Positions 5,292 through 14,637 of a stretch of 14,637 nt of DNA are shown in pieces. Within the stretch, counting starts at the first letter, position 1. Each line of letters begins with the position of its first letter. This stretch comes from Frondihabitans sp. (lineage in GTDB: Bacteria; Actinomycetota; Actinomycetes; Actinomycetales; Microbacteriaceae). The notes below the pieces were generated by a model, which was not told where the DNA came from, searched no databases, and saw only the letters and a program-made list of their open reading frames with translations. Position numbers and translations under genes: made by a program. The stretch spans positions 1-14,637 of the forward strand of contig JAODMX010000481.1 in assembly GCA_025464735.1 (NCBI GenBank), read 5' to 3'.

Positions 5292-6830
5292 TCAGTCGCC
5301 GGCGGCCATCACCGTGCGGCACGCGAGGTGCAGTGCCAGCCGTGTCTCGGCGTCGCCGAGGTCGACCTGGAGGATCCGCTGGATCCTCTGCACCCGCTCC
5401 GTCACGGTGTTGCGATGGACCGCCAGGATCGACGCGGTCTCGGCCACGGACGACTCCGAGTCGAGGTAGGTCGCGAGCGTGAGCAGGAGGTCGCCCGTCG
5501 TCTGGCGCCTCAGCGGCGCGAGCAGTTCAAGGGCGGCCGGCTGGAAGGTGTCGGTCTGGGTCCACGCGAGCAGCAGTTGCGCGAGACCCAGGCGGTCGAC
5601 GTGCAGGAAGTGCCCGGACTGCGGACGCGAGGCCGCGAGTCGGGCGGCGTCCGACGCTTCGGTGAGGGAGCGCGCGATCCCGGTCGGGCCGTGGTGCACG
5701 CGGCCGATGCCGACCGCCGTCGGGAGGTCGGCGTCCCAGCGCTGCTGTGCGCGGCGCACTGCTCGTGCTGCGTCGCCGGTCGCCGTGACGTCCGGCTCGA
5801 AGTCGGAGGAGACCCACGCGGCCCAGCCGTCGCCCTGCTCCACCACCGCCACGTCGAGGCCCTCGGCAGCGAGAGCCTCGATCAGCTCGTACCGTCTCCC
5901 CACGATGTCGACGTCGTGGCGCGACACGATGCGGATTCCCATGTGCCAGCCTTCGACGCGCCAGCCGAGTTCGAGTGCGCGGCGGAGGAGGCCGGCGCCC
6001 GGGGAGTCCCCGGCCTCGAGGAGCTCGCCGAGCAGGGCGATCCGCCAGCGCGCCTCACGCTCGTCGACCACCCGGAGCAGCGAGAGCCGGTGCGCGACGG
6101 CAAGGGCCACCGCGGGCAGCGAGGCGGCGACCGCGTCGAGTTCGGTGGGGATGGATCCCGGCACCTCGACCACGAGCCAGCTCGGCACCACGAGCCCGGA
6201 CTCCACCGGGGCCGTCACGAGCGAACCGCCCCGAGAGCCCGGACGGACGTCGACATGACCGGCGAGGCCTCCCGCCACGGCCGATAGCGTCTGCTCGGCG
6301 AGCACCGCACCGTCGGGAGCAAGGATCCGCCCCGCTCCGTCCACCAGTACGACGGAGCGCCCGAGGCTTCGGGCGGCAGCGTCGAGCACGTTCGCCGGAT
6401 CCGAGCCGGCAGCCGACACCGCGCCGATCGCGTCGAGAGCGGCCCTCGACGTCACGGCGCGGCCGCCGCTGATCCGGTCGTGCAGGGCGATCGAGGTCTT
6501 CCACGGGTCGTCGCACACCAGCATGACGAGGCCGAGTCGTTCGGCGAGGAGAGTCGTTGCCCGGTCGATCGCGACCTCCCGGTCGAGGATCACGACAGAG
6601 ACGCCCACGTCCGCGAAGCGTCTGAGGCGCGCGTCGAAGCGCCAGGTGGTGCGAGTTGCCCGGTCGAGGACGACCATGATGTCGACTCCGGCGATCACGA
6701 CGTCCTCGTCCGGCGACTCCATCCGCACCCCGAGCAGGGTCGAGACCGAGGGATCCGACGACCCGGCGACGCGCTCCACGTCACCCAGCGACCCGTGGTC
6801 GAGAAGAGCTGCGAGGGAGTGGCTTCTCAT
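5292..6830 (-). CDS. PucR family transcriptional regulator (last gene of the ureide operon)
   Basis: A 512-residue regulator of the PucR/CdaR type. The N-terminal about 130 residues look like the PucR domain (LLGVRMES, then DIMVVLDR, VSVVILDREVA and LGLVMLVCDDPW). The middle holds a GAF-like and a GGDEF-like effector region. The C-terminal about 60 residues are the HTH_30 domain: LLLTLATYLDSESSVAETAS followed by LAVHRNTVTERVQRIQRIL and the conserved closing RLALHLACR. B. subtilis PucR activates purine and allantoin catabolism, which fits the permease and ring-processing genes upstream. The start is ATG 6830-6828, overlapping the upstream DUF917 stop as ATGA; an upstream in-frame start would add a long Arg/Pro-rich segment lying inside that gene. 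Being the final cistron, it is made in proportion to the enzymes and could give feedback control of its own operon. Its operator is unknown. Confidence 0.92.
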   Translation of the reverse strand: MRSHSLAALLDHGSLGDVERVAGSSDPSVSTLLGVRMESPDEDVVIAGVDIMVVLDRATRTTWRFDARLRRFADVGVSVVILDREVAIDRATTLLAERLGLVMLVCDDPWKTSIALHDRISGGRAVTSRAALDAIGAVSAAGSDPANVLDAAARSLGRSVVLVDGAGRILAPDGAVLAEQTLSAVAGGLAGHVDVRPGSRGGSLVTAPVESGLVVPSWLVVEVPGSIPTELDAVAASLPAVALAVAHRLSLLRVVDEREARWRIALLGELLEAGDSPGAGLLRRALELGWRVEGWHMGIRIVSRHDVDIVGRRYELIEALAAEGLDVAVVEQGDGWAAWVSSDFEPDVTATGDAARAVRRAQQRWDADLPTAVGIGRVHHGPTGIARSLTEASDAARLAASRPQSGHFLHVDRLGLAQLLLAWTQTDTFQPAALELLAPLRRQTTGDLLLTLATYLDSESSVAETASILAVHRNTVTERVQRIQRILQVDLGDAETRLALHLACRTVMAAGD

Positions 6831-7897
6831 CGGACGGCCGCCGGGTAGTCGTCGAAGCCGAAGGCCTGTGGGGACACGCTGGCACGCCGTTCCGGTGTGG
6901 CGGTCCACCACGTGGGTGCGGCCAGCTCCACGACGGCGACCTCGATCCCGGTGTGGACGTCATCGACGGCGAGGACGGACGCCCCGGGCACGCCGAGCAC
7001 GGCGATGATGTCGGGCGCCGTGGTGACGGCGACCCCGTCGACGAGGGCGATGACGAATTCGTTCTCCGCTTCGAGGCGGATCACGGCTCCCGTCGATTCG
7101 TCGAGGATCGAGACCGTGGTCACGTCGAAGCCGCCCGAGCGGGGTGAGGTGACAAGATCGACCACGCGTCCGGATCCGATGAGTCGTCCGTCGACGGCGT
7201 CGGAGAGTTCGCGTGCGGTCGCGTTGCGCGGCGCACTGCGCAGCCCGCGGCCCAGTTTCAGCGCTCGGTCGGCCGTGCCGGGAATGGCCGTCTCCGCGAG
7301 ATCGGCGACCCGTTGCGGGGCGAGTGCGAGCGCTCCCCAGCCGGACGTCTTCGAGATGATGAGGCGAAGCAGCGACTCGACCTCGGTCGGACTGATGCCG
7401 TCGAGAAGGACGGTCTGGCCGCCGGGCTCCGTGACCACGCAGGGTGCGATCGAGCGACCCGATGCGGTGAGACTCGACTGGTCGAGCCTCGGCAGGGCCC
7501 GTCCGGTCAGGTCCGCATCGAGGAGCGGGAGGCCGACGAGTGAGGCGGTCGCGATCGGCGAGAGCCCATTGAGGCCTGCCATCTCGAGGGTCATCAGGGC
7601 GGCGGGTGCGCGTCCGGTCCAGCGGGTGAGGGCATCGACCGCCTCGGCGAGCTCCGTCCCAGAAGGCAGCTTCTCGCGGAGCACGGCGGTGGAACCGATG
7701 TAGCCGACCGGCACGACCAGATCGTCCGGCTGGAGTTCGTCGAGACTGACCCAGGTGACCGGTGAGAGGGCCAGCTGTCTGGCCGTGGCCCTGGCGAGGA
7801 GGCGCGGGTCGCCGCCGCCGCCGGAGCCGAGGAGCAGGAGGCCCTCGACGAGGTCTCGCAGATCGTCGACCAGCAGCTCCCGGCTCACAGGCGTCAC
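6827..7897 (-). CDS. DUF917 (S-Me-THD-type) protein, second, diverged copy
   Basis: A 356-residue cytosolic protein of family DUF917, split in Pfam into S-Me-THD N- and C-terminal domains after an S-methyl thiohydantoin desulfurase. The N-terminal Gly-rich turn GSGGGGDP (24-31) is intact. The TLEMAGLNGLSPI and GLPLLDADLTGRALP segments align with the EVGGANSTIPM and GLPLVDGDGMGRAFP of the neighbouring copy, but with several substitutions. The central NYAMTGAQ segment of the first copy is not preserved. The second half (ARELSDAVDGRLIGSGRVVDL to the TAPDIIAVL segment) follows the family C-terminal domain. The start is GTG 7897-7895, 4 nt after the preceding stop, with no clear ribosome binding site, so translation is likely coupled. 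The stop overlaps the pucR ATG. It may pair with the first copy as a heteromer or have another substrate; both are inference. Confidence 0.87.
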   Translation of the reverse strand: MTPVSRELLVDDLRDLVEGLLLLGSGGGGDPRLLARATARQLALSPVTWVSLDELQPDDLVVPVGYIGSTAVLREKLPSGTELAEAVDALTRWTGRAPAALMTLEMAGLNGLSPIATASLVGLPLLDADLTGRALPRLDQSSLTASGRSIAPCVVTEPGGQTVLLDGISPTEVESLLRLIISKTSGWGALALAPQRVADLAETAIPGTADRALKLGRGLRSAPRNATARELSDAVDGRLIGSGRVVDLVTSPRSGGFDVTTVSILDESTGAVIRLEAENEFVIALVDGVAVTTAPDIIAVLGVPGASVLAVDDVHTGIEVAVVELAAPTWWTATPERRASVSPQAFGFDDYPAAVR

Positions 7898-7901
7898 GGT
7901 A

Positions 7902-9047
7902 TCAGAGCGGCGCCGCCGCGACCTCCCTCACGAAAGAGTCGACCGGTGAGCGGACCGGCTCCAGGTCGTAGCCGAAGTAGCGGGGCCCTGCGAGGGTGAT
8001 GCCCTGCGCGCTGTGCCAACGCTCGTCGGCCGGAGCCGAGATGACCCGGACTCTCTGGCCGTAGCGCAGCGTCTCGGTCGTGATCGGTTCGCCGGTCTCG
8101 GAGTCGAGAACCATGATGAGATCGGGAGTCGAGACGACCGGTCGTCCGTCGAGCGTCGCCAGCAGCATCTCGTTCTGGAAGCCGAGCACCAGCTCGCTTC
8201 CCCGGTCTGCGTCGACACCTTCGACGCGCGCCTGGCCCTTCGCGAAACCCTCCACGGTTCGGCGGGAGACGTCGATCACCTTGCCCGAGATCAGGATCGA
8301 ACCGCCGAGCCGCTCGGCCACCGCGCCCACCGGATCCGTGAGGTCGCGCCTGGCCTCCTCGACCAGGGTTCCGAGCTCGTAGCAGAGCGACAGGGTGTGC
8401 GGCACGAACGACTTCTTGATCTGCGCTCCGGTCATCGCGTAGTTCGACATGATCATCGAGCTGCCCATCTGAACGGCGATCGGTCGGGTCAGGCGTTCGG
8501 CCCAGGCGTTGTCGATCGTGTCGACCACCCCGGTGTTGCCCTTCTCGTCGGCGAACGACATCGGGGTCGCCCTGACCCCGTCGATCGTAGGAAGGACCAT
8601 CTGGATCTCGGGGAACGCCCGTCCCATGCCGTCACCGTCGACGAGAGGCAGACCCAGCCGCGCGGCCGCGACCATGGGAATGGTCGAGTTGGCCCCGCCG
8701 ACTTCGATGCAGGCGACGTGAGTCGGCGTGACACCCAGGTAGCGGGCGAGCGAGGTGATCGCCCCCTCGAGTTGGTCGACTGTGGGCAGCTTCTCCACCA
8801 TGACCGTGGGGGCTCCCATCATCGCGACGGGGATCACGACGGCATCGTCCGGGAGGCCGAACGGATCGTCAAGACGAATCGGACCGAGCGACTTGATCGC
8901 TTCGCCGGCGAGAAGGCGCCCGATATAGGGGTCGCCGCCGCCGCCGGTGCCGAGGATGGCGGCGCCGCGGGCGATCGCCGGGAGGTGCTCGGCCCGAATC
9001 TCGGTCAGTCGGGGCCTCGCCACGGCACTGCCGTTGATGTCAGACAT
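7902..9047 (-). CDS. DUF917 (S-Me-THD-type) protein, first, canonical copy
   Basis: A 381-residue cytosolic protein with the complete DUF917 pattern: GTGGGGDP (33-40), VAMMGAPTVMVEKLP, CIEVGGANSTIPM, LGLPLVDGDGMGRAFPEIQM, NYAMTGAQIKKS and, in the C-terminal domain, LGGSILISGKVIDVSRRT and TPDLIMVLDSETGEPI. DUF917 genes commonly sit beside HyuA-type genes and are linked to hydantoin or thiohydantoin chemistry; the reaction here is not known. ATG 9047-9045 is chosen because AGGAAGG lies six bases upstream and the family sequence begins soon after. A start 32 codons further upstream would only add Arg/Ser/Pro-rich sequence inside hyuA. It overlaps the end of hyuA by 8 nt and is followed after 4 nt by the second copy. 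Confidence 0.9.
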   Translation of the reverse strand: MSDINGSAVARPRLTEIRAEHLPAIARGAAILGTGGGGDPYIGRLLAGEAIKSLGPIRLDDPFGLPDDAVVIPVAMMGAPTVMVEKLPTVDQLEGAITSLARYLGVTPTHVACIEVGGANSTIPMVAAARLGLPLVDGDGMGRAFPEIQMVLPTIDGVRATPMSFADEKGNTGVVDTIDNAWAERLTRPIAVQMGSSMIMSNYAMTGAQIKKSFVPHTLSLCYELGTLVEEARRDLTDPVGAVAERLGGSILISGKVIDVSRRTVEGFAKGQARVEGVDADRGSELVLGFQNEMLLATLDGRPVVSTPDLIMVLDSETGEPITTETLRYGQRVRVISAPADERWHSAQGITLAGPRYFGYDLEPVRSPVDSFVREVAAAPL

Positions 9048-10599
9048 GGACTGCCTTCCTGATGTCGAGGTCACCGACCGCCTTGGCCCGGATCCTGATC
9101 GCGTTGCCGGGCAGGTAGGGAATCGGCAGCTCGTCGAAGTCAACGATGGTCACGCTCGCCGGGGTAGCCCCGGCAGCGATCGCGCGGTCCACCGCTTCCT
9201 GCCTCGCGTCGTCGAGAGCCTGCTGACGTGACCCCTCGCTGACGCTGTAGACGCGGTCGAGTTCACCGCTGACCTGCGCGATGGCGGCGCCGACGGCATT
9301 GGCCACGGCGAAGTTCTCCGGGCGGTGGACGGAGCCGAAGCCCGTGAGTTCGTCGGGGAGGAGGATCGATCCGCCGCCGACGGCAACCACCGGAAGCGGT
9401 GCCGATGAGGTGCGCATGCGCTCGACCACTCCGGCCACGCGTTCGGCGATCGTGTCGAGCGTGGCTCGGATGAGATCTTTCTGCAGATGGGCAACCAGAG
9501 AGCGATCGCCCACGTCGGCCATCCCCGCAGCCACCGCGATGTCGGTCGTCGTCAGGGTATCCCCGCCGAAGACGAGGGCTCGGCGGGTCAGCTCGTAGCC
9601 GACCGAGTCGGGGCCGACGAGCGCGCCGTCGTCGCGCACCAGTGAGCCGCCGCCGATTCCGATCGAGAGGACGTCCGGCATTCGGAAATTGGTCCGGATC
9701 CCGGCCACGCTGATCTCGGCCGTCGCCTCGCGGGGGAACCCGCCGTTGAGCACGCCGACGTCGCTGGTCGTTCCGCCGATGTCGACGACGGCGCAGGTGC
9801 CGAGGCCGGAGAGCAGGGCAGCACCGCGCATCGAGTTCGTCGGGCCGGAGGCGAAGGTCGCAACGGGGTACCGGCGGGCGAAGTCGACGTCCATCAGCGT
9901 GCCGTCGTTCTGCGAGAGATAGAGCGGCGATGTGATGCCGTGACCGCGAACGGCCTGCTCGAGTCCGCCGACGATCTGGTCGGCCAGCTCGCGGAGGGAC
10001 GCGTTGATGATGGTCGCGTTCTCGCGCTCGAGAAGACCGATGCGACCGATCTCGTGGGAGAGCGAGATCGCGACGTCGGGGCCTAGCTCGGCGGACAGGA
10101 TGGCCGCCGCCTCGACCTCGAACTCGGTGTTGACGGGCGCGAAGACCGACGAAATGGCGACCGATCTGAGGCCGCGCTTGGCGATGTCGGCTGCGTGCCG
10201 CTTGAGTTCGTCAGGGTCAAGCGGCGAGATGACGCGGCCGTCGAACTCGTGGCCACCGTGAGCGAGATAGCCCGTGCCTGACACCGCGTCGACCAGGGCC
10301 TCGGGCCAGTCGACGAACGGGGGCAGCGACGCGGTGGCCGGCAGGGCGAGACGCACGGCCGCCGTGGGGGCGAGACGTTTGGCTTCGACAAGCGCGTTGA
10401 TGAAGTGCGTGGTGCCGATCATCACGGCGTCGATCTCGGCCGGGTCGAACGGATGCTGTCGGTCGAGCTCGACGAGCGCGTCGACGATTCCCGTCGTGAC
10501 GTCACTCGACGTCGCCCGCTTGATGCCGGTGACGACACGGTCATCGTCCATCAGGACGGCGTCGGTGTTGGTGCCGCCGACGTCGATCCCGATCCTCAC
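9040..10599 (-). CDS. Hydantoinase/oxoprolinase HyuA-like ATPase, short form
   Basis: A 519-residue cytosolic protein of the HyuA family, which drives ATP-dependent opening of hydantoin or 5-oxoproline type rings. The actin-like ATPase signatures are visible: DVGGTNTDAVL (6-16), DIGGTTSDVGVL (273-284) and VAVGGGS (405-411). The Hydant_A_N domain covers roughly 1-180 and the Hydantoinase_A domain about 195-440, with GTTHFINAL (62-70) and ASGPTNSMRGA (250-260) typical of the family. Full HyuA proteins are near 690 residues; this one stops soon after YLPGNAIRIRAKAVGDL (495-511), and no HyuB gene follows, so it is the short form found with DUF917 partners. The start is GTG 10599-10597, overlapping the permease stop as GTGA. 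A longer upstream frame inside the permease gene is Arg-rich shadow. The DUF917 start lies inside its 3' end. It is likely a functional partner of the DUF917 proteins. Confidence 0.92.
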   Translation of the reverse strand: MRIGIDVGGTNTDAVLMDDDRVVTGIKRATSSDVTTGIVDALVELDRQHPFDPAEIDAVMIGTTHFINALVEAKRLAPTAAVRLALPATASLPPFVDWPEALVDAVSGTGYLAHGGHEFDGRVISPLDPDELKRHAADIAKRGLRSVAISSVFAPVNTEFEVEAAAILSAELGPDVAISLSHEIGRIGLLERENATIINASLRELADQIVGGLEQAVRGHGITSPLYLSQNDGTLMDVDFARRYPVATFASGPTNSMRGAALLSGLGTCAVVDIGGTTSDVGVLNGGFPREATAEISVAGIRTNFRMPDVLSIGIGGGSLVRDDGALVGPDSVGYELTRRALVFGGDTLTTTDIAVAAGMADVGDRSLVAHLQKDLIRATLDTIAERVAGVVERMRTSSAPLPVVAVGGGSILLPDELTGFGSVHRPENFAVANAVGAAIAQVSGELDRVYSVSEGSRQQALDDARQEAVDRAIAAGATPASVTIVDFDELPIPYLPGNAIRIRAKAVGDLDIRKAVHV

Positions 10600-13272: not shown

Positions 13273-14133
13273 CTACAGCGCGTAGAGCGCAGGCCCCGCC
13301 GTACTCGTCAGCTCGCTGACCCACGCGGCCGGGTCCGGCGTCGCGGCCGAGACGACGACCATTCCGATGCCGAGCTGCGCGTACTCGGCCATGGTTGGCA
13401 CGAACTCGGGGGCGAGGGCGTTGCCGCCGTAGATCATCGTCTTCTCGATCTCGTCGTAGTTGCGACCGACCGCGTCGCAGTGCCCACGGAGGATGTCGAG
13501 CTTCCGCTGAATCTCGTCGACCGGCAACCCGAAGAGGTTGCAGGCATCCGCGTACTGCGCGACCAGTCGAAGCGTCTTCTTCTCGCCGCCGCCGCCGATC
13601 ATGATCGTCGGTTTCTGCTGGATGGGCTTCGGGTAGCAGATCGTCTCGGCGAGCTGGTAGTACTCGCCGTCGTAGGGGCCGTCGTCGTCGCTCCACATTT
13701 GCAGCACGATCTGCAGGGCCTCCTCGAGGCGCTTGAACCGCTCCGAGATCGGCGGGTAAGGCACGCCCAGGGCGAGGTGCTCGCGCTCGTACCAGGCGGC
13801 TCCGAGACCGAGCATCGCTCGCCCGCCGGAGAGAACGTCGAGGGTCGTCGCGATCTTGGCGAGGAGCCCGGGGTAGCGGTAGGTGACCCCGGTGACGAGG
13901 AGACCGAGACGCATCCGCTCGGTGAGCGCTGCGACGTAGCCGAGCGAGGTGTACCCCTCGAGCATCGGATCCGTGGCCGGCGCCCGTTGCTCCATCTGGA
14001 AGTAGTGGTCCATCAGCGTGAACTGGGTGACCCCGCCCGCCTCCGCCGCCTTGGCCGTGTCGCCGAGATGTTTCGCCAGGTTCGTGTTGTCGCCCGCGAG
14101 TGTGAAGTTCGGGAAGTGGATGCCAAGCTGCAT
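13273..14133 (-). CDS. LLM class F420-dependent oxidoreductase (Rv1855c-type)
   Basis: A luciferase-like TIM-barrel oxidoreductase of 286 residues from the chosen ATG. It fits the actinobacterial subgroup that uses coenzyme F420 rather than FMN. Visible marks are MQLGIHFPNFTL, LMDHYFQM, TSLGYVAALTERMRLGLLVTGVTYRYPGLLAK, DVLSGGRAMLGLGAAWYEREH, RLEEALQIVLQMWSDDDGPYDGEYYQL and PTIMIGGGGEKKTLRLVAQYADACN. The substrate is unknown; relatives reduce or oxidise a range of small organics. The ATG at 14133 sits after AGGGTGA and matches the usual family start. A GTG at 14142 would add three residues (MKN) and is equally possible. On its upstream side lies the nested palindrome, then the Ddn-type gene on the same strand. 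This is a second LLM protein in the window, distinct from the FMN monooxygenase at 2971. Confidence 0.92.
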   Translation of the reverse strand: MQLGIHFPNFTLAGDNTNLAKHLGDTAKAAEAGGVTQFTLMDHYFQMEQRAPATDPMLEGYTSLGYVAALTERMRLGLLVTGVTYRYPGLLAKIATTLDVLSGGRAMLGLGAAWYEREHLALGVPYPPISERFKRLEEALQIVLQMWSDDDGPYDGEYYQLAETICYPKPIQQKPTIMIGGGGEKKTLRLVAQYADACNLFGLPVDEIQRKLDILRGHCDAVGRNYDEIEKTMIYGGNALAPEFVPTMAEYAQLGIGMVVVSAATPDPAAWVSELTSTAGPALYAL

Positions 14134-14175
14134 GTTCTTCACCCTAGGCCTGCTGCCTTCCGGGCGCCGCCCCCG

Positions 14176-14245
14176 GCTAAACCCTCGCAGTCGGCTGTCG
14201 CGGTGGTCCTAGGACCACCGTCGCGGCCGGTGGCGAGGGTTTAGC
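14176..14245. repeat. 70-bp nested palindrome (large hairpin)
   Basis: The outer arms GCTAAACCCTCGC (14176-14188) and GCGAGGGTTTAGC (14233-14245) are perfect 13-bp inverted repeats. Inside, 14201-14220 is a perfect 20-bp palindrome with half CGGTGGTCCT. Both share the same centre, at 14210/14211. Of the 12 intermediate pairs, five are Watson-Crick (four of them the CGGC/GCCG block), five are G:T as read on the plus strand, and two are mismatches (A/G at 14189/14232, C/C at 14199/14222). As plus-strand RNA this folds into an almost continuous 33-bp stem. It lies between the Ddn stop and the oxidoreductase start, both minus-strand, and has no T run. It could be a REP/MITE-like element, an RNA processing or termination hairpin, or an antisense RNA. 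Confidence 0.85.
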
Positions 14246-14270
14246 GGGCCGGCGGGCCGGCGGGCGGGCG
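14245..14270. repeat. Short GC tandem repeat
   Basis: CGGGCCGG occurs at 14245-14252 and 14253-14260, followed by the variant CGGGCGGG at 14261-14268 and CG. It abuts the right arm of the nested palindrome and ends a few bases before the Ddn-type stop. It probably arose by slippage and has no clear function. Confidence 0.75.
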
Positions 14271-14274
14271 CAGC

Positions 14275-14637
14275 TCAGGCGCGCGTCAGCACGAAGACGG
14301 GGATCAGACGGTCGGTCTTCAGCTGGTAGTCGGCGTAGTCGGGGTAGGCGGCCACGGACCGTTCCCACCAGAGGTCGCGCTCCTCGCCCGAGACCTCCCG
14401 GGCGATGTAGTCGTGCTTGGCGGGGCCGTCCTGCAGCTCGACGTGCGGGTTGGCGACCAGGTTGTAGTACCAGGTGGGATGCTTCGGCGCGCCGCCCTTG
14501 GAAGCCACGACGGCGTATTCGCCCTCGTGCTCGACTCTCATCAGCGGGTTCTTCCGGAGGTAACCGGACTTCGCGCCGATCGAGGTCAGAACAATGACCG
14601 GCATTCCGCGCAGCTCTGTGGCCTGAGTTCCGCCGGA
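14275..14637 (-). CDS. Ddn-type F420 / nitroreductase-family protein (DUF385), 5' part outside window
   Basis: The C-terminal 120 residues of a split-beta-barrel protein of the deazaflavin (F420)-dependent nitroreductase family, which includes mycobacterial Ddn. The open frame runs without a stop to the window edge. Visible family sequence is [58 protein letters not shown] and NPHVELQDG, then the C-terminal [14 protein letters not shown]. Complete members are about 145 residues, so roughly 25-30 N-terminal residues lie beyond base 14637. The internal ATG at 14604 is not the likely start, since conserved sequence continues upstream of it. Relatives use F420H2 to reduce quinones or nitroaromatics. 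It is upstream of, and on the same strand as, the F420 LLM oxidoreductase, separated from it by the palindrome. Confidence 0.9.

Follow-up and report, generated by a model that had tools for sequence, protein, structure and literature searches.

We identified a 70-bp palindromic repeat element (positions 14176-14245, given without strand) in the window, the whole 14,637-nucleotide stretch of Frondihabitans sp. DNA that was analysed. The element sits between two co-directional genes, both on the minus strand. The upstream gene (14275-14604, minus strand) encodes a nitroreductase-family deazaflavin-dependent oxidoreductase (TIGR00026, PF04075) and its stop codon lies 29 nt before the element; its open reading frame reaches the window end, and the true start may be located earlier. 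The downstream gene (13273-14142, minus strand) encodes an LLM-class F420-dependent oxidoreductase (TIGR03560, PF00296), and its called start lies 33 nt past the element. Comparison with L002, a Frondihabitans sucicola locus, points to an ATG located 9 nt further in as the more likely start. The LLM-class protein is 87% identical to the F. sucicola protein, the next matches being 66-67% identical, and in genome G001, which contains L002, the sequence read around the LLM-class gene has different neighbours and no element. Elsewhere in the window (6827-9143, minus strand) two adjoining S-Me-THD-type genes lie beside hydantoinase-type and cytosine/purine permease genes.

The element is a nested palindrome, and its coordinates and the perfection of both inverted repeats in the preliminary description were confirmed. 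The outer arm GCTAAACCCTCGC (14176-14188, plus strand) forms a perfect 13-bp inverted repeat with its complementary copy GCGAGGGTTTAGC (14233-14245, minus strand), and the perfect 20-bp central palindrome CGGTGGTCCTAGGACCACCG (14201-14220) shares the same centre, between 14210 and 14211. The left intermediate segment (14189-14200) pairs with the right intermediate segment (14221-14232), and 7 of these 12 pairs are indeed non-Watson-Crick (one A.G, one C.C and five G:T, read by eye on the plus strand). Among the inverted repeats of the window with arms at most 100 nt apart, the element is the longest. Folding of the 106 nt from 14160 to 14265 gave -83.0 kcal/mol for plus-strand RNA (z -6.7) and -74.6 kcal/mol for minus-strand RNA (z -5.7), and none of 200 shuffles folded as well on either strand. 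A curated RNA family was dropped as a candidate, as Rfam gave no match at the gathering threshold across the whole window. A plasmid or phage element was also dropped: one search returned no match, and the other a single 22-base match outside the element.

A search of related genomes and a covariance model of any homologues had been proposed, and both were carried out on seven Frondihabitans genomes (G001-G007), revealing dispersed copies with covarying arms across the genus. A DNA search with 76 bases returned numerous strong matches for G006 and G003, fewer for the other genomes of the genus, and matches at chance level only for G001 and G007 (best E 0.31 and 0.04, respectively). When 37 copies were used to build a covariance model, this gave matches in all seven genomes. 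The 78 usable copies that were read (28 in G006, 19 in G003, 16 in G005, six in G004, five in G007, two in G001, one in G002 and the window copy) are lower bounds, the candidates scored per genome being 40 for the DNA query, 150 for the covariance model and 12 for a scan of 398 genomes. One of 50 places was excluded in the first round (L170, register unclear) and six of 35 in the second (L211, L221, L223, L224, L225 and L240, with different arms or weak structure); L225 figures in the comparison of orthologous sites although it was dropped from the counts. With a core 18-mer and up to two mismatches, all matches in G003 (16) and G006 (17) fall within identified elements. In the 398-genome scan, which used stricter filters, the 391 other Microbacteriaceae genomes yielded one match (G343), which on inspection did not have the body plan of the element. 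The family is limited to Frondihabitans, as far as searched. An exact-arm pattern search of the genome_contigs collection returned no stretches, whereas G003 and G006, from the other collection, do match the pattern. The viral contig L001 was rejected as a family copy; it shares the outer arms only and by inspection carries an unrelated hairpin after a phage-like gene. Some copies are clustered: L151 and L152 (G006:C1:1257001-1293000) together hold six copies in about 31 kb, the first five about 3.2-4.3 kb apart, and L157:1472-1857 (G003) holds three copies in about 390 bp with two genes flanking.

The window copy has 68 of 76 positions in common with each of its two nearest relatives, copies that lie in another genome at unrelated loci. 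The position just after a stop codon would fit a terminator hairpin that is purely local or arose by chance, but this identity, the covariation across the family and the fold that no shuffle equalled make that explanation next to impossible, and the chance hairpin was dropped.

The copies have a common body plan consisting of outer ACCCTCG/CGAGGGT arms, a CGG/CCG block and a central palindrome in a lineage-specific dialect. Alignment A1, comprising 37 copies, is gap-free; the outer ACCCTC/GAGGGT, the CGG/CCG pair and GGTGGTCCTAGGACCACC, which is also the core of the window copy, are invariant or nearly so, and the segments between them, including those corresponding to the two intermediate segments of the window copy, are variable and covarying. 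A few divergent copies are shifted by one base. In A1, 16 of 33 pairs are altered on both sides, with 63 double-change cells against 26.4 in shuffled alignments (0 of 500 shuffles as high), a count in which, as in model R1, pairing is favoured because A1 left out 12 of 49 copies with hybrid cores, and which has to be read knowing that related sequences can exceed shuffles; slid controls were also far lower than observed. Dialect A (GGTGGTCC), to which the window copy belongs, is present as AA in 41 copies, dialect C (GCAATGCC) as CC in 10 copies, all in G005, and dialect B (ACCCCGCC) as BB in two copies. The remaining cores are A/B hybrids (10 of 78) and 15 others, and five of the 78 copies have neither half of a named dialect. 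Within a genome one dialect dominates, A in G003 and G006 and C in G005. Three of the excluded G005 places (L211, L221 and L223) have an A-like core with the halves GAGGTGGTCCG and CGGACCACCTC and different outer arms, and possibly represent a sister family.

As both neighbouring genes are on the minus strand, the plus strand of the element is antisense to both. The preliminary description had taken the one-sided G:T pairs as a sign of selection on a plus-strand transcript. Read on the plus strand, the non-canonical pairs of the window copy do include five G:T and none of A:C, but such a one-sided copy is not unusual in the family: an imbalance of four or more was found in 7 of 78 copies, where about 4.5 are expected from coin flips. 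If pairing in the sense RNA were maintained, G:U pairs on the sense strand should exceed A:C pairs. In the 28 copies between same-strand genes the sense strand has 49 G:U and 49 A:C pairs, which counts against selection on RNA pairing; the 20 non-hybrid copies among one-way genes have 37 G:U and 28 A:C pairs, a small excess that is not decisive. As the family shows no clear strand polarity, the five G:T pairs in the window copy do not point to selection on the plus strand. Selection on an antisense transcript at this locus is therefore very improbable, the more so as the transcript would be antisense to both neighbours and matches no Rfam family at the gathering threshold.

Template switching from arm to arm is a known homogeniser of the arms of inverted repeats, according to two reports (PMC8604942, PMC7202029). 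It would yield double changes without strand bias, and could account for much of the covariation.

The lack of strand bias in the wobble pairs would also suit a site in the DNA recognised by a sequence-specific protein (a nucleoid, recombination or uptake factor) with a preferred core that varies between lineages, the hairpin being incidental. An invariant core and arm blocks separated by variable spacers, as in the alignment of dialect A, and the prevalence of a single dialect per genome are consistent with such a site. Hybrid cores and copies with neither named half are not, and the two-fold symmetry of 70 bp is larger than that of usual protein binding sites. For uptake signals, moreover, at least 1,000 copies are usual according to PMC1852404, against 1-28 copies read per genome here. 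We consider a protein site unlikely as the explanation for the family.

The copies are located at the ends of genes. Gene 3' ends within 400 nt of a copy number 86, against 36 gene starts; the element follows the stop codon at a median distance of 26 nt, and one of the 78 copies was called within a gene, so that the family is dispersed, extragenic and palindromic as REP sequences are. At 6 of the 86 gene ends the called gene terminates 5 nt inside the element, and the outer arm is often CTAAACCC, CTAGACCC or CTGAACCC, which makes a stop codon available. Neighbours on both sides were fully resolved for 49 copies (29 of the 78 were left out on this account), with 19 copies between convergent, 28 between co-directional and two between divergent genes, whereas 54 element-free gaps at the same loci were 12 convergent, 22 co-directional and 20 divergent; these classes are approximate, the genes having been called with a simple third-position-GC caller. 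Divergent gaps are thus avoided (2/49 against 20/54, Fisher p 3e-5), and the enrichment of convergent gaps is not significant (19/49 against 12/54, p 0.09). A first pass on 49 copies with other caller settings gave 23 convergent, 19 co-directional and three divergent placements, two copies inside genes and two unresolved. A second strong hairpin besides the element was found at 3 of 70 gene ends (4% with the element masked; random control 1.3%), and a strong hairpin at 13 of 54 unmasked element-free gene ends (24%; random control 11%), two rates which, owing to the masking, are not directly comparable.

A stable GC hairpin just past a stop codon, as found here, is a feature of intrinsic terminators. 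The element shares with ordinary bidirectional intrinsic terminators the location after stop codons, the GC hairpin and A/T at the stem base on both sides; it differs from them in being homologous across unrelated loci and genomes and in its stem of about 35 bp. The element's T-tract is short and lies partly within the stem; over 78 tails the first six bases contain 2.8 T on average, of which the first follows from the method used to locate the tail. Eleven ordinary gene-end hairpins at glnA and typA, read by eye, have 1-4 T in the same six bases. The missing T run had been put forward as an argument against a simple terminator, but it probably does not discriminate, as the ordinary hairpins of the genus have similarly short tails, and it is probably no argument against occupation of a terminator place.

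At the 3' end of glnA the element is present in G003 and G006, and unrelated GC hairpins occupy the same place in the other five genomes (that of G005 was read by eye without folding). At the 3' end of typA the element is present in G006, against a plain hairpin in each of the remaining six genomes. Thus at both genes tested the element and the ordinary hairpin are alternatives in the terminator place, and the distribution of the element on the tree suggests that it replaced the resident hairpin. At a third site, between xylA and xylB, the gap measures 3, 9, 25 and 3 nt in the four genomes without the element and 104, 105 and 124 nt in the three species with it. Presence and absence at an orthologous site, seen here with approximate unit boundaries, is a feature of MITEs. 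The xylA-xylB element is an extra intercistronic hairpin, like the window copy, and as a strong terminator between co-directional genes would be polar, both placements count against a terminator reading there. Its core is of dialect B in G003, of dialect C in G005 and of a third type in G001, and all three are palindromic, that of G001 shifted by about one base. Further sites are shared by pairs of genomes: the glnA 3' site and a site at the next gene (read as ugd) by G006 and G003, a site after the RNase J gene by G006 and G001, one after der by G006 and G007, and others. The names TypA, XylB and RNase J are based on partial proteins with scores below the curated model cut-offs. On an unrooted three-gene tree, ((G005,G002),(G007,G004),(G006,(G003,G001))), with support of 0.75 for the place of G006, the presences are patchy, and gain, loss or exchange must therefore be repeated. 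An open reading frame between two element copies after glnA (L131:2030-3100 in G006, L156:1548-2627 in G003) ends at the TAG of an element centre and is weakly AbiEi_4-like (28.6 and 24.7 bits, cut-off 25); a homologue in G005 (L220) aligns to within 7 nt of an element centre.

A structured mobile element of the REP/MITE/RAYT kind had also been suggested. The element is structured, repeated and mobile-looking, with covarying arms, but the association with RAYT was not borne out: the Y1 transposase domain (PF01797) was absent from all seven Frondihabitans genomes and detected in 5 of 14 control genomes, and a RAYT-associated REP was dropped. The 78 copies, whose exact edges are uncertain, were bordered by direct repeats of 4-9 bp no more often than with shuffled flanks. 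A transposon with target-site duplication was dropped accordingly, and insertion as a transposon gains no support from these edges. If the element were a mobile palindrome of the MITE or REP kind, functionless and non-autonomous, its accumulation at gene ends would reflect nothing more than the removal of insertions from genes and promoters. The patchy occurrence at orthologous sites, including xylA-xylB, agrees with this, as does the restriction of matches to one genus among 398 genomes, bar one chance-like match. This explanation accords less well with the lack of both the Y1 transposase and a duplication signal, with the finding that at glnA and typA the element stands in for the resident hairpin and does not accompany it, and with the palindromy that is preserved although the core changes at one site. 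We regard this explanation as rather unlikely.

ERIC sequences are palindromic, repeated, often intergenic, restricted to particular lineages and able to fold as RNA; the Frondihabitans element is probably unrelated to ERIC. The resemblance to ERIC and to the SLS families (PMC2267715) lies in just these properties, whereas the Frondihabitans element has 70 bp, a lineage-dependent core and the habit of occupying terminator places of orthologous genes. REP sequences of the GTAG and CGTC superfamilies measure 20-40 bp, have stems of 5-13 bp and carry their GTAG or CGTC tag at one end (PMC3733652). They are likewise dispersed extragenic palindromes, and the CGTC REPs, as described there, also occur without a dedicated transposase. 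The Frondihabitans units measure 70-76 bp with near-symmetric arms of about 35 bp, reading of the copies revealed no consistent tag, and no RAYT accompanies them. In Neisseria and Pasteurellaceae, a repeated uptake sequence in inverted pairs makes terminator hairpins at gene ends (PMC1852404). This resembles the repeated hairpin-forming sequence described here, of which tens of copies at most were found. The element belongs among lineage-specific palindromic repeats like REP, ERIC and the stem-loop families (PMC3733652, PMC12306157, PMC1852404, PMC2267715).

From position, structure and distribution we infer that the element is probably a genus-specific palindromic repeat that spreads between gene ends, where it would serve as a terminator-like or intercistronic hairpin. 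The hairpin would be able to act in either direction, resembling a terminator where it follows lone or convergent genes and serving for processing, stabilisation or partial termination between same-strand genes, including those of the window. Copies may spread from gene end to gene end and could stand in for a resident terminator. Complementarity of the arms would be maintained in the DNA itself, for which template switching from one arm to the other and exchange among copies are the most likely means, whether or not the hairpin is also under selection. A bolder proposal, which we put forward tentatively and rate as doubtful, is a self-propagating terminator: a palindrome that moves or is copied between gene ends and evicts the resident terminator, with arms matched by DNA-level correction and each lineage fixing its own core dialect, perhaps tracking a trans-acting factor.

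Palindromic repeats of this type are best known from Proteobacteria. No description of such a family in Microbacteriaceae was present among the literature matches listed, which covered few subscription papers and are weak evidence of novelty; the one match listed for palindromes in Frondihabitans dealt with the microbiota of a cave church. On this weak evidence the element is a known kind of repeat in a genus for which no description was found, with two uncommon features, the occupation of terminator places and the change of core at fixed sites. The fast change of the core at a single site with symmetry kept warns that covarying arms do not by themselves prove selection on an RNA. The Frondihabitans family provides a high-GC actinobacterial case in which orthologous genes with an ordinary hairpin, an element or a tight operon junction can be compared, and these comparisons open to test the question of whether repeats of this kind assume genuine functions at gene ends.
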